Source: Bacillus sp. REN16 (GTDB lineage: Bacteria; Bacillota; Bacilli; Bacillales; Bacillaceae_L). Taken from it: a stretch of DNA of 64,000 nucleotides. This document shows, one piece after another, positions 1 to 63,576 of the stretch. The stretch is taken from NCBI RefSeq assembly GCF_020731355.1, contig NZ_JAJFZK010000009.1, positions 96,032 to 160,031 on the forward strand. Reading direction: 5' to 3'. The position numbers and the translations under genes are program-made. The notes under the pieces were generated by a model, which did not search any database, was not told where the DNA came from, and saw only the letters and a list, made by a program, of their open reading frames with translations. The first letter of the stretch is position 1. The number at the start of each line of letters is the position of its first letter.

Positions 1-123
1 GTAACGACATTATTTATTATAAAAACAGAGTTTCTTGTTGTCAAGAGCATCTGTAATTATATGTTTTGTGTCTGTCCGTTTTTCGCGGCGACTTTTATAA
101 TTTATCACACGAATGAACAAGAG
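1..123. other. Intergenic sequence at the window start
   Basis: AT-rich; no ORF, hairpin or RNA gene that I can support. The neighbouring gene on the left is outside the window. Confidence 0.5.
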
Positions 124-585
124 TCAATATTTTTTTACTTCTACTAATTTTCCCGCGCATTTACCACATACATACCGATCTGTATCAATCTTTCTTTTTC
201 TAACATAACCTAACCCACAGCTTTTACACGTATACAAATATTGTTTTGATGTTTTTCTTCTTTTAATGGATTCTAATGGTTTACAAAATCGTGGAGCGTC
301 TACTTCTTTCAAGAGATTCCGAAAGTCACGGTCTCGATGCTGGTAGCCCTTCCCTTCAATGTGCAAATGATAATGACAAAGTTCATGTTTGATGATGCCC
401 ACTAACTCATCAATTCCACGTTCCTGATAATATTTAGGGTTTAATTCGATATTGTGAGATTTCAGCAAGTACCTTCCACCGGTTGTTTGCAATCGATTAT
501 TGAAGGATGCTTGATGGAGAAATGGTTTTCCAAAGAACTTAAGGGAAACTTCCTCGACAATTTTTTGCAGCTCAAATTGTTCCAT
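124..585 (-). CDS. SprT-like zinc metalloprotease-fold protein (YdcK type)
   Basis: A 153-residue SprT-family protein. The zinc-binding HELCHYHLH motif lies mid-protein. A C-terminal zinc ribbon is visible as CKSC and CGKC pairs flanking a basic stretch. The family resembles the Spartan/SprT metalloprotease fold; the Bacillus member YdcK has no firmly assigned substrate. I place the start at the ATG ending at 585 because GGAAAGGAAG precedes it at good spacing; an in-frame ATG 18 bases upstream lacks a comparable site. The gene is divergent from cmpA, as in B. subtilis, which supports the orthology. The family call is firm; the cellular role is unknown. Confidence 0.88.
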
Positions 586-734
586 TTTTTTCTTCCTTTC
601 CATCCTTTTCGAACAGGACGTACTGTGTTTGCATAGACTATATATACTCAAACGTATAGTTTGGTAGCTTTATCATTATAGTATCATTTTTTTGATTTTC
701 CTGAGGATAAAAGTTGATAGAGGAGGTTTAGGTT

Positions 735-848
735 ATGCCTACTTGGCTTCAAAATCAAATGAAACGTGCCTATTATGAAAAAAATCGATACCAAATTAAA
801 TTATTGAATCAATGCTGGTATTTTTATAGAAAAAAACACTGCTCATAA
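735..848 (+). CDS. cmpA: CmpA, small sporulation cortex-assembly checkpoint protein
   Basis: A 37-residue ORF preceded by AGGAGG eight bases before the ATG. The C-terminal stretch YQIKLLNQCWYFYRKKHCS matches, from memory, the end of B. subtilis CmpA, and the position next to ydcK is the same. In B. subtilis CmpA acts in the mother cell in a quality-control pathway that directs mis-assembled coat protein SpoIVA to ClpXP, linking coat assembly to cortex formation. The last codons form one arm of a terminator hairpin shared with tex. The gene marks the host as a spore former. Confidence 0.9.
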   Translation: MPTWLQNQMKRAYYEKNRYQIKLLNQCWYFYRKKHCS

Positions 849-862
849 AAGCAGTGTTTTTA
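832..862. terminator. Bidirectional terminator between cmpA and tex
   Basis: Inverted repeat AAAAACACTGCT / AGCAGTGTTTTT with a short loop and an A/T tract on both sides. It can terminate cmpA (plus) and tex (minus). Its left arm is inside the cmpA coding end. Confidence 0.8.
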
Positions 863-867
863 CATTC

Positions 868-3045
868 TTAATTTTGTGGCGGCAGCATTGTTAATGCAAC
901 TCTGCCCTTTTTCACATCGACATCATCGATCCAGACGGTCACAACGTCGCCGACTGAAACAACGTCAAGTGGGTGTTTGACAAAGTTTTTACTCAGTTTA
1001 GAGATATGGACTAAGCCATCCTGCTTAACTCCGATATCAACAAATGCTCCGAAGTCTACAACGTTTCGGACAGTCCCTTCAAGTTCCATTCCTTTTGCAA
1101 GATCTTCAAGTTTAAGGATATCCTTTTTAAGGATTGGTTTTGCTAGTTCATCACGAGGGTCACGTTCTGGGCTGACTAAAGCTTCTGTAATATCGTGAAT
1201 GGTGATTTCACCAATCCCTAATTCAGCAGCTACCTCTTCTGGGACAATGGAAGACATAGCTTCTTTTAATCTTTCTGTTCCTAGATCACTACTTGTTAGA
1301 CTAAATTTTGCGAGTAGCTTTTTAACCTCTTTATAGTTTTCTGGGTGAATCCCTGTACGGTCCAATGGCTCGTCTCCATCAATGACACGGAGGAAACCGA
1401 TACACTGCTCGTATGTTTTTGCGCCTAGACGCGGGATGTCCTTCAATTCACTTCTATCCTGGAATTTCCCTTGCTCCTCACGTTTTTTTACAATATTATT
1501 AGCAACTGTCTTTGAAAGGCCAGCTACATATTGCAGCAAGGATGGGGATGCTGTATTCACATTCACACCAACCTTGTTCACGACTGTTTCAACGACAAAG
1601 GTAAGCTGTTCATTTAGCTTTTTCTGGGATACGTCATGCTGGTATTGACCAACCCCTACTGACTTCGGATCAATTTTCACAAGTTCAGCAAGAGGATCCT
1701 GGAGTCTTCTAGCAATCGAAACAGCACTTCTTTCTTCTACTTGGAAATCAGGGAATTCTTCACGTGCAATATCAGAAGCTGAGTATACACTTGCTCCCGC
1801 TTCATTGACAATAATATAGAAGATTTCTTGATTTACTTCTTTCAGAATATCTGCAACAAATTGCTCAGTCTCTCTTGAAGCCGTTCCATTACCGATTGCC
1901 ACCATTTCAACCTTATATTCTTGTAAAACGGATTTGATCTTCTTAACCGCTTCATCCTTTTTATTCACCGGTGGATGCGGGTAAATTACACCTATATTTA
2001 GGACCTTTCCTGTTTCGTCGACTACCGCAAGCTTACAACCAGTTCGGTAAGCCGGGTCCACTCCCAGAACAATTTTCCCTTTAAGTGGCGGCTGTAAAAG
2101 TAAATTCCGAAGATTTTCCGAAAAAATATGAATCGCTCTATCTTCCGCTTTCTCTGTCAGCTCTTTACGAATTTCCCTTTCAATTGAAGGCTGAATGAGT
2201 CGTTTATAACCATCTTCAATTGTTTCAATGATATAAGGGGTTACCGGCGAATTTTCTTTTTTGACAATTTTTCGATTTAAAAAGGTCAAAATTCGGTCTA
2301 GAGGCGGTTCAATTGACACTCGAAGGATCTCCTCTTTTTCCCCGCGGTTCATAGCCAGGACGCGGTGTGGAACGACCTTGTGAATCGGCTCCTTGTATTC
2401 ATAGTACATTTCGTAGACATTCTTTTCGTCTTTTTCTTCGTCTTTTACGGCTGTTTCAATTGTTCCTAGTTTGAAGGTTTCGTTACGAATCCATTGACGA
2501 AAAGCAGCATCATCTGAAATCCATTCGGCGATAATGTCCTTTGCACCAAGAATCGCATCTTCCGCACTCAGAACTTCCTTTTCCTCTGAAATGAATTGTA
2601 TTGCATATTGGCCAACATCCACATTCATCGGGAATGTATATAACCATTCCGCCAATGGCTCGAGCCCTTTTTCCTTTGCAACGGTCGCTTTTGTACGTCG
2701 CTTTTGTTTGTATGGTCTATATAGATCCTCGATTTGCTGAAGCTTGGATGACTTCATGATGTCTGCTTGAAGTTCATCAGTCAGCTTTCCTTGTTCGGAA
2801 ATGAGACGGATGACCTCTTCTTTACGCGACTCAAGGTTTTGCAAATAAGTCCATTTTTCCTGAACATCCTTTATTTGCACTTCGTCTAAAGACCCTGTCA
2901 TTTCCTTACGGTAACGCGCAATAAATGGGACCGTATTTCCTTCGTCTAAGAGGTTGATTACACTGTTCACTTGCTTAGTAGTTATTCCGATTTCTTTGGC
3001 GATGGTTTTCACCATCATGTCATTTGTTTGCAATGTCTGTGTCAA
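868..3045 (-). CDS. tex: Tex family RNA-binding transcription accessory protein
   Basis: 725 residues, the usual Tex length. Recognisable in order: the N-terminal helical Tex region, a YqgF/RNase H-like domain starting near residue 325 (ILGVDPAYRTGCKLAVVD in similar form), tandem helix-hairpin-helix segments around 490-560, and a C-terminal S1 RNA-binding domain (about 645-720). Tex binds nucleic acid and affects transcription and ribosome homeostasis; the biochemical details are family knowledge. The start is TTG at 3045 with TAGGAGG nine bases upstream. It corresponds to B. subtilis YdcI and keeps its place beside cmpA. Confidence 0.95.
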   Translation of the reverse strand: MTQTLQTNDMMVKTIAKEIGITTKQVNSVINLLDEGNTVPFIARYRKEMTGSLDEVQIKDVQEKWTYLQNLESRKEEVIRLISEQGKLTDELQADIMKSSKLQQIEDLYRPYKQKRRTKATVAKEKGLEPLAEWLYTFPMNVDVGQYAIQFISEEKEVLSAEDAILGAKDIIAEWISDDAAFRQWIRNETFKLGTIETAVKDEEKDEKNVYEMYYEYKEPIHKVVPHRVLAMNRGEKEEILRVSIEPPLDRILTFLNRKIVKKENSPVTPYIIETIEDGYKRLIQPSIEREIRKELTEKAEDRAIHIFSENLRNLLLQPPLKGKIVLGVDPAYRTGCKLAVVDETGKVLNIGVIYPHPPVNKKDEAVKKIKSVLQEYKVEMVAIGNGTASRETEQFVADILKEVNQEIFYIIVNEAGASVYSASDIAREEFPDFQVEERSAVSIARRLQDPLAELVKIDPKSVGVGQYQHDVSQKKLNEQLTFVVETVVNKVGVNVNTASPSLLQYVAGLSKTVANNIVKKREEQGKFQDRSELKDIPRLGAKTYEQCIGFLRVIDGDEPLDRTGIHPENYKEVKKLLAKFSLTSSDLGTERLKEAMSSIVPEEVAAELGIGEITIHDITEALVSPERDPRDELAKPILKKDILKLEDLAKGMELEGTVRNVVDFGAFVDIGVKQDGLVHISKLSKNFVKHPLDVVSVGDVVTVWIDDVDVKKGRVALTMLPPQN

Positions 3046-3099
3046 AACTGTTTCCTCCTACTTTCACTTCTAACCCTTATCTATTTTACCAAAATTACT

Positions 3100-3855
3100 T
3101 CATCCAAGTACGGCTTGTCGAAGCTTTTTAATCGCATTTCGCTGGATGCGGGAAACATGCATCTGTGAAACGCCGACGATTTTTCCAGTTTCTCGTTGGC
3201 TTTTCTCTTTTATATAAGTATAGTAAAGAATTCTTCTTTCAGATGTGGTCAGTACATGAAGGGCATTCTTTACATCTAGTTTTTTTAGCGCTTTTTCGTA
3301 GCCTTTTTCCTTTTTACCTACGGATTCCATGATCGTTCTTCCTTCTGAATCCGGATCTATCGGCATATCGATTGACTGTGTACGATAAGCTTGTCCAAGT
3401 TCCATTGCTTCTAAAACTTCCTTCACATCTACATGAAGATGATTTGCGATTTCATGTACCTCTGGCTTTCTTTGCAAAATGGTTGTAAGCTCTTCTTCAG
3501 CCTTCATGATCTTTGTTCCAAGCTCCTTAGCTCTTCTAGGTACATGTACACTCCACGTTTTATCACGTAAAAAATGTTTGATTTCACCAATGATAGTTGG
3601 AATTGCGAATGTATGAAAGCTCTTTCCAAGTGTTTCGTCAAATCTTCGAATCGCACCTAAAAGTCCGATTCTTCCAACTTGTACGATATCCTCGTGAAAT
3701 GCTCTCCCTCTAGAGTACTTCCAGGCAATTGACTGGATTATTTTTTCATACCTCTCAACGATTTCCCTTTCCGTTTGTTTTGAGCCAGTTTTTTGGAAGT
3801 TCTGTACCAGCCTTTCTACTTCCTCATGTTTCGGATTTGTAGATTGCTTTCTCAT
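3100..3855 (-). CDS. sigB: General stress sigma factor SigB-like
   Basis: A 251-residue sigma-70 group 3 factor. Region 2 carries FHEDIVQVGRIGLLGAI, followed by the hallmark FLRDKTWSVHVPRR segment; region 4 ends with a helix-turn-helix containing GVSQMHVSRIQR. These are SigB-type sequences. A GGTGG site lies five bases before the ATG. It sits downstream of ndoA, as sigB does in B. subtilis, but rsbR, rsbS, rsbT, rsbU, rsbV, rsbW and rsbX are all absent between ndoA and tex. The terminator after ndoA and a separate promoter suggest independent transcription. How the protein is held inactive cannot be told here. Confidence 0.87.
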   Translation of the reverse strand: MRKQSTNPKHEEVERLVQNFQKTGSKQTEREIVERYEKIIQSIAWKYSRGRAFHEDIVQVGRIGLLGAIRRFDETLGKSFHTFAIPTIIGEIKHFLRDKTWSVHVPRRAKELGTKIMKAEEELTTILQRKPEVHEIANHLHVDVKEVLEAMELGQAYRTQSIDMPIDPDSEGRTIMESVGKKEKGYEKALKKLDVKNALHVLTTSERRILYYTYIKEKSQRETGKIVGVSQMHVSRIQRNAIKKLRQAVLG

Positions 3856-3987
3856 TTTTCCACCGCTCTCTTTTTATTTTGTCACGAAAGGTTGTTCAGG
3901 ATAATAATCCCTTCTTATGTACTTCGATAGAAAAGCTTTGATCCCCTTCACATTCGGATATTTGTTACACAAGTAAAATGGTTTTGT

Positions 3988-4015
3988 AATATAACATACG
4001 TCTAAATGGTTACAA
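3988..4015 (-). promoter_or_regulatory. Probable SigA-type promoter of sigB
   Basis: On the minus strand TTGTAA is followed after 16 bases by TATATT, about 130 bases before the sigB start. The -35 box overlaps the U-tract of the ndoA terminator. No convincing SigB-type promoter (GTTT...GGGTAT) is seen, so autoregulation is not supported by sequence. Confidence 0.5.
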
Positions 4016-4046
4016 AATAAAAGAAGCTACCACGGGGTAACTTCTC
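4014..4046 (-). terminator. Terminator of the ndoAI-ndoA operon
   Basis: Minus-strand hairpin GAAGTTACC / GGTAGCTTC (one G-T pair) with a CCGT loop followed by TTTTATTTT. It separates ndoA from sigB transcription. Confidence 0.75.
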
Positions 4047-4073
4047 AAAGACGTATCAAATATAAATAATGAA

Positions 4074-4424
4074 TTAAAAATCGATGAGTCCTAAACTAAT
4101 TTGTAAGGCATCATCCACTCTGTCCATCATCTCTTCATCGAGATGTGTTATCTTATCGGTTAGACGCTGCTTATCGATTGTACGGATTTGTTCTAACAGG
4201 ATAACTGAATCGCGCTCAAATCCATAACGCTCCGCATCAATTTCAACATGTGTCGGAAGCTTTGCTTTTTGAATTTGGGCAGTTATAGCTGCGACAATGA
4301 CCGTGGGACTAAACCGATTCCCGATATCGTTTTGAATGACAAGAACAGGACGAACGCCTCCTTGCTCTGAGCCAACAACTGGGGAGAGGTCTGCAAAATA
4401 AACGTCGCCACGTTTTACAATCAA
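4074..4424 (-). CDS. ndoA: EndoA (MazF-type) mRNA endoribonuclease toxin
   Basis: 116 residues, the usual length of Bacillus EndoA. The MazF/PemK hallmark [18 protein letters not shown] and the RPVLVIQND segment are intact. EndoA cleaves mRNA and is neutralised by the antitoxin encoded immediately upstream; the family member in B. subtilis cuts at UACAU. The ATG is four bases after the antitoxin stop, with the site inside the upstream gene, consistent with translational coupling. No truncation is seen, so the toxin should be active. Confidence 0.95.
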
Positions 4425-4428
4425 ATGA

Positions 4429-4710
4429 TTACCCCCCGCTAACTAAGCGTTCTACGGTGTGGTCAGCCTCTGATTCAGCCAAAAAAGCCTCCGATGCAAT
4501 AGTAAGGTTAATTTTCGCCATTTCCATGTAACCGCGTCTCATTGATTCTGTAATCTGACGCTTCTTTCTTTCACGCAGATACATTTTTGTCGCCTGATAA
4601 ATAAGTTCATTTCGGTTACCGTTTTCTTGTTTCACTAGGCCATCCAACTCACTTATTAGGTTTTGTGGTAATCGTACTAGAATTTCTGTTGTTGCGCTGG
4701 ATTCAGACAC
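4429..4710 (-). CDS. ndoAI: EndoAI antitoxin, ribbon-helix-helix
   Basis: 93 residues from the GTG start, the same length as B. subtilis EndoAI. The N-terminal half reads as a ribbon-helix-helix DNA-binding domain; the C-terminal half contains [12 protein letters not shown] and ends [10 protein letters not shown]-like, which in the family wraps the toxin. GTG at 4710 is preferred because GGTGGAGG lies nine bases upstream; the in-frame ATG at 4716 would leave only three bases. It forms a two-gene operon with ndoA and sits downstream of alr, as in B. subtilis. Confidence 0.93.
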
Positions 4711-4937
4711 AAACATACACCTCCACCAACTTGCCACCATATTCTATTCCAATCTTAATAATACCATTATTGTGATTGGATGCAAAGCTTAATCCAATAA
4801 TTCTTACTTATTATCGGCATTTAGAAATGGTTTTTATGCACATGTTTTACAATGTTACCAAAATCTACATTCCATTACATGCATAAAAAAAAGAATGTAC
4901 CAAATTCGTACAACCAATGTACTAATTTACCTACTAA

Positions 4938-5066
4938 TCAAATACGCCTCGGCGTATTTGCGCCCAGATTTTTTCGAGCAAGCTCGAAAAACTTCCTTTG
5001 AAAATCTGTGGCATCCGCCGGAGGCTTTAACTTTATTCGGCAGGTGACTCTGCTGAATAAAGTTAA
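4938..5066 (+). repeat. Three-hairpin dispersed repeat, copy A
   Basis: First of five copies of one element. Hairpin 1 is CAAATACGCC / GGCGTATTTG with a two-base loop. Hairpin 2 has an outer stem GCCCAGATTTT / AAAATCTG-T-GGC and inner arms TTCGAGC / GCTCGAA. The constant block ATCCGCCGGAGGC follows. Hairpin 3 is TTAACTTTATTC / GAATAAAGTTAA plus extra pairs. The alr stop codon (5063-5065) lies in the outer arm of hairpin 3. I see no open reading frame belonging to the element and no clear target-site duplication. Confidence 0.88.
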
Positions 5067-6223
5067 TGTCTTAATAACGGATTTCTCACTTCAATTATTC
5101 TCTTATTTCTTAAAAAAATACGCGGAACGCGAAAACTTATTGTACAAGTGATCTCGTAATTGATTGTTTCAAGGGTCTTTGCAACGTCATCAACACTAAT
5201 GAATTTATCGTTTTGCCTTCCAATTAAAGTGACTTTATTTCCAACCGGAATTTTCTTTGGAAGTCGGACCATAAATTGGTCCATACAAATACGGCCAATG
5301 ATTTGACAGAGTTCACCCTCAACTAAGACATGAGTATTTTGTAATTTTCGTACCCACCCATCCGCATAACCGACCGGAACTGTTCCAACCCACATATCTT
5401 CATCAGCTGTAAAAGTTGCCCCATAGCTTACCTTTTCGCCTTTTGCAATTTGTTTCACATGGACGAGTTTGCTATGGAAAGAAAATGCTTGTTGAAGTCC
5501 GTATGGGAGCTGGTCTTCAATTTCTAGAGAAGGGGTCATCCCATACATTCCGATGCCAAGTCTTACTACATTAAATACTTTCTCTGGAAAACGGTAACCA
5601 GTTGCACTATTTCCGCAATGGATCATTTTCGGTTTGTTCGGTATCCACTCAAGCATTTGCGTGAATTTCTGATACTGCTGGACAAAATAGGAGGTATCCG
5701 TTTCATCCGCTGTTGCAAAATGAGTGAAAACTCCTTCAAGTTTAACTTGTGGATGTTGCTCAATTGTCTGAAGGACTGCTTGTATTTCATCTTTTTCTCT
5801 TACACCAAGACGTCCCATCCCTGTATCAAGCTTTAAGTGAAGGGATAGAGGGGCACTGCCATGATAGTTTTTAATTACCTCTTCTAGCCATTCTTGACTG
5901 TAGATGGTGAGCGATAGATCGTGTTCTGCTGCAATCATGACATCAGTTGGACGTGAGGCCCCAAGAACGAGTATTGGTGCATCAATTCCTCCATGACGCA
6001 AGGAAATACCTTCGTCGATAAAAGCAACAGCAAGATAGGTTGCACCCGCTTCAAGTGCTGTTTTTGCTACCTCAGCGTCCCCATGACCATATGCATTTGC
6101 CTTCACGACTGCCATAATATCTACTTGTTCTGGTAAAAAGCTTTTCATATTTTTTACGTTTTCAAAAATGCAATCCAAATCAACTTCAACCCACGTATCG
6201 CGATAAAAATGGGTAGAATCCAT
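5063..6223 (-). CDS. alr: Alanine racemase
   Basis: 386 residues, fold-type III PLP enzyme that converts L-alanine to D-alanine for peptidoglycan. The PLP-lysine motif AVVKANAYGHG is near residue 40, and the second catalytic region (YGATFTAD) is present near residue 265. The start is the ATG at 6223 with AAGAAGGTG seven bases upstream; an ORF extension further upstream is discarded. murF and ddl, the later D-Ala pathway steps, are encoded 10-12 kb away in the same window. The stop codon coincides with the edge of repeat copy A. Confidence 0.95.
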   Translation of the reverse strand: MDSTHFYRDTWVEVDLDCIFENVKNMKSFLPEQVDIMAVVKANAYGHGDAEVAKTALEAGATYLAVAFIDEGISLRHGGIDAPILVLGASRPTDVMIAAEHDLSLTIYSQEWLEEVIKNYHGSAPLSLHLKLDTGMGRLGVREKDEIQAVLQTIEQHPQVKLEGVFTHFATADETDTSYFVQQYQKFTQMLEWIPNKPKMIHCGNSATGYRFPEKVFNVVRLGIGMYGMTPSLEIEDQLPYGLQQAFSFHSKLVHVKQIAKGEKVSYGATFTADEDMWVGTVPVGYADGWVRKLQNTHVLVEGELCQIIGRICMDQFMVRLPKKIPVGNKVTLIGRQNDKFISVDDVAKTLETINYEITCTISFRVPRIFLRNKRIIEVRNPLLRH

Positions 6224-6260
6224 GAGTATACACCTTCTTAGATTAATTGCTACTATCAAT

Positions 6261-6396
6261 TCAAATGCGCCATAGCGTATTTGCGCCCAGATTTTTTCGA
6301 GCCAGAGCTCGAAAAATTACCTTTTAAAATCTGTGGCATCCGCCGGAGGCATTAATATAAAATAGTTGGGTTTAAACCCGACTATTTTATATTAAT
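6261..6396 (+). repeat. Three-hairpin dispersed repeat, copy B
   Basis: Same hairpins 1 and 2 as copy A. Hairpin 3 has a different sequence, ATTAATATAAAATAGT / ACTATTTTATATTAAT, closed around GGGTTTAAACCC, so the pairing is conserved while the bases are not. It lies 38 bases upstream of the alr start and downstream of the inhA terminator. Confidence 0.88.
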
Positions 6397-6503
6397 TCGA
6401 TTATTTATTTTCATTGTGTCCTTGTCAATGGAGTTTTTTTATTATACCCATCTTAACATATGACGGAAAAAAGAAAATATGTTGAAGAAAAATTGAATGT
6501 ACA

Positions 6504-10739: not shown

Positions 10740-10825
10740 TTCAAAAATCCTTTCTTCTATATACAATCTTTCAATCATAAGATGGTACAAACTCTTCTAA
10801 GAATATAGTACGATAAAAAGAACCA

Positions 10826-11011
10826 TCAAATATGACTTGGCGTATTTGCGCTCGATTTTTTTCGAGCAAGCTCGAAAAATTTCCTTTGAAAAATCGTGGC
10901 ATCCGCCGGAGGCTTTAACTTTATTCAGTCGGGGCTGACCACCTCACTGAATTATTACTCTTGTTGCATTTTTTCACTAATAATCAGGGATAAATTATGA
11001 ATAAAGTTAAA
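10826..11011 (+). repeat. Three-hairpin dispersed repeat, copy C (divergent)
   Basis: Hairpin 1 is decayed (CAAATATGAC / TGGCGTATTTG). In hairpin 2 the outer stem is CGATTTTT / AAAAATCG instead of CAGATTTT / AAAATCTG, changed on both sides. Hairpin 3 has the same outer arms as copies A and E (TTTAACTTTATTCA / TGAATAAAGTTAAA) but carries about 70 bases inside, including a second ATTCAGT / ACTGAAT pair. The element ends at the ribosome-binding site of the rhomboid gene. Confidence 0.85.
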
Positions 11012-13717: not shown

Positions 13718-13798
13718 ATCCAACCAACCTTTCCCCTGTTGGAATATTTTTCATATCAACCTTCTCAGTATAAATGATTTTTTCGAAATATTAAACAA

Positions 13799-13994
13799 TC
13801 AAATGCGCCTTGGCGTATTTGCGCCCAGATTTTTTAGGCCCACACGATGTGGGTCACAAAGACGTTGCCACAGGAGGTGGCGTTCTTAGTCTTTGATCTT
13901 ATTGCTCGAAAAGTTTCCATTGAAAATCTGTGGCATCCGCTGGAGGCTTTTTATTTTATTAGCTGGTATTTAAACCCGGCTAATAAAATAAAAA
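13799..13994 (+). repeat. Three-hairpin dispersed repeat, copy D (with ~75-bp internal arm)
   Basis: Hairpin 1 is CAAATGCGCC / GGCGTATTTG. In hairpin 2 the CGAGC tip is replaced by about 75 bases that themselves form two stems: CCCACA / TGTGGG, and CAAAGAC-GCCAC / GGTGGC-GTCTTTG. Hairpin 3 is TTTTTATTTTATTAGC / GCTAATAAAATAAAAA, again a different but complementary stem. It sits between cshA (3' side) and ydbS (5' side). Confidence 0.85.
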
Positions 13995-30894: not shown

Positions 30895-31135
30895 AAAACC
30901 ACGCCCCTAAAAAAGGGACGTGGTTGCACGCGGTACCACCCTTGATTGAAGATATGTATCTTCCGCTTCATTCGAATAACGGCTCGTCCGTTCTTTGTTA
31001 ATTGCCAATTGGGCGTTCACAAAGAAAGCTCAAGGAGGTAATTCACATTTATCTTTGTTCCGGTTTTCACCAACCACCGGCTCTCTGCTTCAGGGAGATA
31101 AACTGCTACTTATTCCTATCATCACTTAACTATTT
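30895..31135 (-). promoter_or_regulatory. Tyrosine T-box leader of tyrZ
   Basis: The minus strand has the T-box sequence AAGGGTGGTACCGCG, then the terminator CCACGTCCC / GGGGCGTGG with a T run. Stem I includes GAGAGCCGGTGG and the AG-bulge side; the specifier loop reads AATTACCTCCTTGAG, giving TAC (Tyr). TGGT in the bulge matches a tRNA ending ACCA. Uncharged tRNA-Tyr should turn tyrZ on. Confidence 0.92.
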
Positions 31136-38847: not shown

Positions 38848-39150
38848 ACCACGTCATTATCTATTACGATAAGGACGTGGTTTATCTCACGTGGTACCAC
38901 CTTAATTCACTGTTTGCTCACACAAACAGTCTTTGCAAGTACGCAGGTCTATTTAAGCCCGTATACTGTGGTATTGATAACGAGTACCAAATCTCGCCGG
39001 AACCTACTCATAACCAATGTTACTTTCAGCACGAAACTCAGAGGCCATTGTTCAGATTTGTATTTTCGCTTCTTTTCAGCTACCGAAGCTCTCTGTGTAA
39101 AATAGCTAAATCCTACTTTTTCTCTTCATCGTCTTTAGTTAAGGTTGTAT
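38848..39150 (-). promoter_or_regulatory. Methionine T-box leader
   Basis: The minus strand carries AAGGTGGTACCACG (T-box) and the terminator AAACCACGTC / GACGTGGTTT with a T run. In stem I the specifier loop reads GAACAATGGCCTCTGAG, giving ATG. The GGTGGTACC bulge pairs with a tRNA ending ACCA, as tRNA-Met does. Low Met-tRNA charging should switch on the SAM hydrolase/ECF operon. The assignment of ATG over a neighbouring triplet is by position in the loop. Confidence 0.85.
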
Positions 39151-63425: not shown

Positions 63426-63451
63426 TGTGGCAACCTCCCCATTATATAGTA

Positions 63452-63576
63452 TCAAATGCGCCTTAGCGTATTTGCGCCCAGATTTTTTCGAGCGTGCTCG
63501 AAAAGTTTCCTCTGAAAATCTGTGGCATCCGCCGGAGGCGTTAACTTTATTCAGTCTTATGCTGAATAAAGTTAAC
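63452..63576 (+). repeat. Three-hairpin dispersed repeat, copy E
   Basis: The shortest, cleanest copy. Hairpin 1 CAAATGCGC / GCGTATTTG; hairpin 2 GCCCAGATTTT-TTCGAGC / GCTCGAA-AAAATCTG-T-GGC; hairpin 3 GTTAACTTTATTCAG / CTGAATAAAGTTAAC with a seven-base loop. The last codons and stop of the upstream oxidase gene (63547-63576) lie inside hairpin 3. Confidence 0.9.

Follow-up and report, generated by a model that had tools for sequence, protein, structure and literature searches.

A gene-less dispersed element of Bacillus sp. REN16 with a covarying 3' hairpin that may be partly built from its landing site

Introduction

A window of 64,000 nucleotides of the Bacillus sp. REN16 genome, the whole stretch of DNA analysed here, holds five copies of an intergenic element with three hairpins, the third of which changes its sequence between copies and stays paired. 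A first-pass annotation, made from the sequence alone, read the changing stem as the mark of selection or of a replication mechanism acting on the folded form, and named a mobile palindromic unit and a structured RNA as candidates. Covariation is usually taken as proof of a functional RNA. The question raised by this locus is whether the covarying stem speaks for an RNA or arises from the way in which a DNA element inserts and is copied.

Results

Five copies in the window

The five copies listed in Table 1 were found at the positions and in the orientation first described, by direct check of the sequence and by model R1, which recovered all of them (4936-5066, 6259-6395, 10824-10958 with the arm ending at 11011, 13797-13993 and 63450-63575), a recovery that is not independent as three of the five were in the R1 training set. 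In all five, hairpin 3 pairs to its own complement. Four copies are antisense to a co-directional pair of flanking genes, and copy 3 sits between divergent ones. Three features had gone unmentioned. Hairpin 2 has two tiers, a GCCC(A)GATTTT/AAAATC(T)GTGGC helix on the outside and a CGAGC/GCTCG hairpin within; the loop of hairpin 3 in copy 3 is 70 nt long; and in copy 4 the Bacillaceae-1 RNA of Rfam (RF01690, 72.2 bits) takes the place of one side of hairpin 2. For the three simple copies, none of 200 dinucleotide shuffles folds as well on either strand, as RNA or as DNA.

Table 1. Copies of the element in the window and their parts
Feature	Position	Strand	Parts and remarks
Copy 1	4936..5066	+	hairpin 1 4939-4960; inner hairpin 2 4970-4991; core GTGGCATCCGCCGGAGGC 5008-5025; hairpin 3 to 5066
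Copy 2	6259..6396	+	core 6333-6350; hairpin 3 6351-6396, arms non-standard
Copy 3	10824..11011	+	core 10896-10913; long-loop hairpin 3, arms 10914-10927 and 10998-11011
Copy 4	13797..13994	+	core 13930-13947; hairpin 3 13948-13994
Bacillaceae-1 (RF01690) module in hairpin 2 of copy 4	13839..13905	-	strand is the one that Rfam models
Copy 5	63450..63576	+	core 63522-63539; hairpin 3 63540-63576

A crude scan of 4900-6450 gave no promoter-like site on the + strand and a single one on the minus strand. At 4850-6500, which holds two simple copies, no other Rfam family came near its gathering score, and copy 1 had no blastn match among plasmids and phages at E 1e-3. The window also carries two T-box leaders on the minus strand (30911-31131 and 38868-39138).

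A family throughout the genus

The family is not confined to the window. Allowing two mismatches at most, the pattern GTGGCATCCGCYGGAGGC occurs 89 times in the 4.64 Mb genome and its reversed control not once, and hairpin 1 (up to seven mismatches) lies upstream in 85 of the 89 matches. These 85 comprise 38 copies with a simple hairpin 2 and a hairpin 3 loop of at most 30 nt, 17 with a longer loop and 30 with the Bacillaceae-1 module. Of the copies without hairpin 1, L042 lies at a contig end and three of the 89 (L009, L025 and L083) are shortened at the 5' side with the 3' part retained; 5' fragments lacking the 3' part also exist (L299, L302). Hairpin 3 is weak or lost (score below 9) in six of the 89 (L004, L012, L026, L033, L058 and L077), the low score of L026 being that of the first copy there, where the script mis-set the arm. 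Of 246 copies, 163 have a hairpin 3 stem that adjoins the core without a gap and 227 one that starts no more than one base from it; one standard arm, TTTAAC, prevails.

Searches with R1 found the family throughout the genus, with 27-97 matches per genome in all nine genomes (E 1e-3), and patchily in the order, with matches in at least 13 of 299 genomes and at least 6 of 116 genera (E 1e-6), lower bounds because this search used stricter filters. Among the matches listed, the exact core occurs in Siminovitchia, Fredinandcohnia, Bacillus timonensis, B. norwichensis, Lysinibacillus, Psychrobacillus, Ureibacillus and Sporosarcina, and the nearest named relatives of the window are contigs of Fredinandcohnia onubensis and Bacillus sp. 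HNG (about 82-88% over the longest alignments). R1 matches in fetched loci numbered 97 in 80 loci and 56 in 49. Hairpin 1 sites of this genome without a nearby core (seven new stretches and L251) gave no gene-carrying version of the element; some are remnants, others complete or divergent copies, and others run into the end of a contig. Viral contigs held no exact 18-mer of the core; of four 17-mer matches there, one had a model match at E 0.2 and the rest none up to E 1, and all were rejected. Exact 18-mers in the high-GC MAG contigs L149, L165, L167, L195 and L221 had no model match below E 0.1 and were taken as chance. A literature search, mostly outside subscription journals, and a search for the sequence string found no description of the family.

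Several loci showed local rearrangement or doubtful origin. At L297, L300 and L209 hairpin 2 has been deleted between short repeats, joining hairpin 1 to hairpin 3. Copies cluster within a few hundred bases in Siminovitchia terrae (L126, L224), and two L224 copies have identical flanks, a local duplication. A contig titled Arthrobacter (L201, NZ_JADHDX010000003.1) carries three copies at a contig GC of 0.43; a mislabelled record or contamination could account for this.

One relative is distant. An 8-kb MAG contig from an uncultured Lachnospiraceae (L139, CACZJF010000003.1, GC 0.53) has at 3243-3431 a match to R1 of 65.4 bits, with the same layout, main stems rewritten in GC-rich sequence, a long-loop hairpin 3 and a core that is identical as a product of search selection, this single copy having been found through the exact core. 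By eye, TTCAAACTTCGTCGCG pairs with CGCGACGAAGTTTTGAA in its hairpin 3 with one bulge, and hairpins 1 and 2 form in the minimum-energy fold of its first 146 nt, from which the right arm is absent. It lies between smpB (Pfam) and the tmRNA gene, sense to both, and had no match among phages and only three matches of about 27 bases among plasmids (E 0.2-0.6).

The stem is kept while its bases change

Covariation was counted on 36 of the 38 simple short-loop copies of this genome (L005 and L041 were omitted as irregular), with a structure derived from the same sequences. Of its 42 pairs, 24 are doubly changed, including all 12 counted in hairpin 3. Compared on five measures, none of 500 shuffles reached the observed value on a single one, and sliding the arms yields 9-13 doubly changed pairs. 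With 95.5% of hairpin 3 cells paired, pairing is not lost as often as bases change, and the statement that the stem is kept while its bases change is upheld under both controls. Among named relatives (80 matches in 62 of 106 named loci), 25 of 42 pairs change on both sides, against none of 500 shuffles, in an alignment that was fitted to the model and hence biased, the omitted loci being mostly Fredinandcohnia, Bacillus sp. HNG, B. timonensis and MAG contigs. In this set pairing reaches 70 and 84% of cells in the two helices of hairpin 3 and 90-99% in the other four helices; three columns do not pair in most of these sequences, at least partly because long-loop arms misfit the model.

Scored symmetrically, stems read on the + strand hold more G-U than A-C pairs: 26 to 7 in 79 of 86 copies of this genome and 93 to 20 in 103 of 112 named copies. 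The ratio in hairpin 1 is 24 to 0, and at the G-U pair of this hairpin G-U is the commonest type. This excess is the opposite of what would be expected if folding of the minus strand were favoured.

Insertion sites

Synteny with up to eight sister genomes was followed at four places. Of 12 copies of this genome examined, 11 could be set against an empty orthologous site, with a gap of no more than 12 nt, in one or more sister genomes; for the twelfth (L246:9044) the sister genomes show nothing but orthologues, remnants or longer gaps. The site of copy 1 is empty in seven sister genomes, and its insertion changed the end of an alanine racemase gene (Pfam), which reads His-Tyr-stop in six of them, His-stop in the seventh, and here His-stop with the stop made at the junction. 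Together with the patchy distribution, these empty sites support the suggestion of a mobile palindromic unit.

Over all loci, 31 copies had candidate empty sites (103 pairs), and 21 passed the gap and anchor filters, representing about 17 sites because the copy 2 site, L070/L278 and L113/L214 enter repeatedly. The net gap against the empty site in these 21 is 2-8 nt (median 5), and comparison of filled with empty loci, which the first-pass annotation had put forward as a check, indicates insertion without target duplication. The first eight bases of the element match the empty site at the control level only and thus give no sign of duplication or of target bases at the 5' end. Within the 5' flank, agreement with the empty site drops at its last three bases (0.52-0.71) compared with those before them.

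The 3' side behaves otherwise. At positions -1 to -4 of the right arm the match to the empty site is 0.86, 0.67, 0.71 and 0.62, against 0.51, 0.46, 0.40 and 0.41 in random pairing. Over the last four bases of the 21 copies 60 of 84 match (shuffled mean 39.0, maximum 52 in 5000), and over the last eight 98 of 168 (mean 66.9, maximum 87). As the outer right-arm bases match the site as it was before insertion above chance, the left arm of the element is complementary to the target. The longest matches are in non-standard arms: copy 2 (eight of the last nine bases, in a sister genome's empty site), L113/L214 (8/8, one site) and L262 (7/7). Standard arms match less, with one to three of the last six bases in many copies and one or two of six in L021, L046, L070 and L077; at L278:2194, whose flanks agree at 95% with its empty site, the outer arm is unmatched. 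By eye, the right-arm end of copy 4, ATAAAAA, resembles the A-run of its empty sites, at a locus that failed the anchor filter and stands outside the 21-copy count. The empty-site bases vary, with no fixed target tetranucleotide. To judge from these junctions, the base of hairpin 3 often joins element to target, with exceptions, and the hairpin is made in part from neighbouring landing-site DNA, which helps to explain how its sequence changes and yet remains paired.

Change in place at orthologous sites

Among 25 orthologous or duplicate filled pairs, 19 were used; two same-locus duplicates, two pairs from near-identical species and two against the pattern (L012/L292, one hairpin lost; L070/L278, one outer arm unpaired) were omitted. 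In the 19 pairs, which are not independent (the copy 2 site enters three times), 163 positions are unchanged and 30 show a double Watson-Crick change; single changes keep the pair in 7 cases and break it in 12, and 4 positions are of other kinds. Arm indels may inflate the number of doubles, as register shifts can mimic double changes. Only 6 of the 30 doubles could have passed through G-U; the other 24 require an intermediate mismatch. Where both members form 10 or more of the 12 pairs (17 comparisons), the arms are as similar as the flanks (identity 0.81 each) and less similar than hairpin 1 (0.86) and the core region (0.90).

Template switching can create and mend stems and hairpins (PMC8794818), and the joint arm changes fit such switching at least as well as selection on an RNA. 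Loci L100 and L225 (flanks 94 and 93% identical) carry one element that differs between them at three scattered bases and in hairpin 2, which is simple in one and Bacillaceae-1-bearing in the other; the new arm CGAGC complements the standing GCTCG. One template switch would convert the Bacillaceae-1-bearing form to the simple one, the direction that we infer.

Orientation and replication

For 86 copies of this genome neighbouring ORFs were called mechanically: 61 copies lie between two opposite-strand genes, 3 between same-strand, 14 between divergent and 4 between convergent genes, 2 have a single neighbour and 2 fall in a predicted ORF. The distance to the other-strand start codon of the 5' neighbour has a median of 24 nt and is most commonly 16 (8 of 75); CTCC or CCTC occurs within 40 nt upstream in 42 of the 86, against 8 for the complement (46 against 20 of 160 at other loci). 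An other-strand stop codon falls most often at -5 from the 3' end (15 cases, this genome and named copies pooled).

Measured on the element strand, 77 of 86 copies of this genome and 97 of 112 named copies show negative GC skew, including 15 of 18 and 30 of 37 of those with neighbours pointing oppositely; by this skew the minus strand is the lagging-strand template in about nine of ten copies. In genome G005, with an inferred origin at about 3.6 Mb and terminus at about 1.1 Mb, 20 of 24 copies oppose replication by local skew and 19 of 24 are antisense to nearby genes; gene direction and replication direction are partly confounded in these orientation counts.

Transposase genes

The genome has six Y1 loci, only one of which, a broken tnpA, adjoins a copy. 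In this remnant (L086:11-2083, C23) the Y1 tnpA is interrupted by two stops, and a frame of 465 aa matches OrfB_IS605 below the cut-off (20.2 bits against 30.5). The other five (L084, L085, L087, L088 and L089) gave no R1 match at E 1e-4.

Discussion

The work defines a mobile family of about 90 copies in this genome, gene-less and with no enzyme tied to it. We propose, at a probability of roughly 45%, that it is a mobile DNA element of about 120-250 bp that inserts in the manner of the single-strand IS200/IS605 elements and has its guide-target stem homogenized afterwards. It inserts without duplicating its target, and a few bases of the site end up at the outer right arm of hairpin 3, a hairpin that is thus closed by the left arm of the element, just after GGAGGC, pairing with target DNA. 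By analogy with IS200/IS605, the reaction would be single-stranded and hairpin-guided, and presumably driven by an enzyme acting in trans. Template switching inside the hairpin as it is replicated could then remove guide-target mismatches in either direction, and might also rewrite the inner stem and turn a Bacillaceae-1-bearing hairpin 2 into a simple one. Covariation would be, at least in part, a by-product of insertion and palindrome correction. Against this proposal we count that no transposase is tied to the family, that G-U pairs are in excess on the + strand, that targets vary and many standard arms match them at few bases, that the junctions come from only some 17 sites, that register shifts in arms with indels can mimic double changes and that the last three 5'-flank bases match less well.

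One rival is a structured RNA, transcribed from the + strand and kept in shape by ordinary compensatory mutation, with dispersal a separate matter. The excess of G-U over A-C speaks for it, as does hairpin 1, where G-U is the commonest type at one pair; the fold is kept in the GC-rich Lachnospiraceae relative, and Rfam treats the Bacillaceae-1 module as an sRNA. We nevertheless consider this account rather unlikely: copies are antisense to their neighbours, the crude scan gave no + strand promoter-like site at 4900-6450, most orthologous double changes are unreachable via G-U, arms diverge as fast as flanks and part of the arm is target DNA. Of the two processes originally offered for the folded form, the replication-type one is better supported, because of this target DNA in the arm and those double changes; what speaks for selection of a + strand fold is the G-U excess and the layout kept in the GC-rich relative. 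An RNA could also move itself, the + strand transcript being copied into a nick, with the target 3' end as primer and short homology to the 3' end of the RNA. A stable + strand fold, short homology at the 3' junction and the three copies cut at the 5' side with the 3' part kept are consistent with this, but most copies are full length at the 5' end and 5' fragments without a 3' part exist, and we think it highly improbable.

Correction after insertion could also act by itself, an unguided transposase choosing AT-rich sites and template switching during replication (PMC8794818) perfecting the 3' hairpin. The same junction and orthologue data fit this explanation, and the unmatched outer arm of L278:2194 is as expected of an uncorrected copy. 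It is nonetheless unlikely in our judgement, in that there is no target duplication, and the stem start at or next to the core and the prevalence of TTTAAC suggest a guide.

A guided, IS200/IS605-like insertion with later homogenization also admits a bolder version, which we regard as quite doubtful: a self-retargeting mobile element whose target-choosing arm would be rewritten from each landing site, in a family fixed only in its GTGGCATCCGCCGGAGGC core and spanning Bacilli and Clostridia. Were this true, every copy would be a readable record of its own target and its descendants would gain new target preferences. The stem covaries strongly even though it is partly target DNA, and orthologous changes point to multibase events; the element is a natural test case for separating selection from template switching.

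Read along the minus strand, the sequence runs from a target of TTTAA type through a linker and a putative guide GTTAAA to the imperfect hairpin GCCTCCGGCGGATGCC. In IS200/IS605 a guide beside a hairpin pairs with the target flanking the end, with a lagging-strand orientation (PMC6006769), and the target choice of IS608 is reprogrammable through such guide bases (PMC5934647). The element shares with them the subterminal hairpins, a layout with a putative guide beside a hairpin, the lagging-strand orientation and insertion without target duplication. It differs in lacking a linked transposase bearing the same ends, in a variable target and guide (theirs are fixed, with a tetranucleotide target), in a guide-target stem of 12-20 bp with an internal inverted repeat, and in that the strand taken to be active is not the one that shows the G-U pairs. 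Given the missing transposase and this G-U excess, we describe it as perhaps working like an IS200/IS605 element, not as being one. With the REPs and REPINs of RAYT genes it has in common many intergenic palindromic copies, GTGG at the core and Y1 genes in the genome. In REPs, however, no more than 2 nt separate GT[AG]G from a fully paired stem of at least 7 bp, and copies flank the RAYT gene, whereas the core GTGG here is paired inside hairpin 2, the next hairpin is short with 3 consensus pairs, and five other Y1 genes have no adjoining copy. Bcr1 of the Bacillus cereus group is likewise an intergenic structured repeat, of about 150 bp, with mobile features and TTTAT motifs (PMC6542083, PMC2267715, PMC3733652), but is described as specific to that group.

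The Bacillaceae-1 RNA, whose defining paper is PMC2864571, is listed in Rfam as an sRNA. It forms hairpin 2 of 31 copies in this genome and is only a module of the element: of 66 genomic hits to RF01690 at E 1e-3, 64 of them over the cut-off, 31 are inside the element and 35 elsewhere. Within the element only the hairpin 2 module exceeds the gathering score, and no simple copy comes near it. Among 30 hits fetched, nine lie outside the element, some by eye in apparent other dispersed repeats (L344, L346, L349 and L353; L343 and L350; L327 and L335), and the modules of L325, L327 and L335 are 90-93% identical to their best in-element match. The placement of these hits points to an Rfam sRNA family that occurs as a module in several dispersed repeats. 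The module was also considered as a REP-like partner of a RAYT gene and rejected, as only one of 30 Y1-homologue loci has it at the gathering score: the best hit, L088:1920-1986, lies 51 nt upstream of a Y1 gene and is missing from the 29 other homologue loci, among which L356 is an 88% identical orthologue. A different dispersed repeat of about 125 bp was seen at L246:10482-10609, L246:17108-17234 and L252:8501-8624, with many matches in sister genomes, some on both strands.
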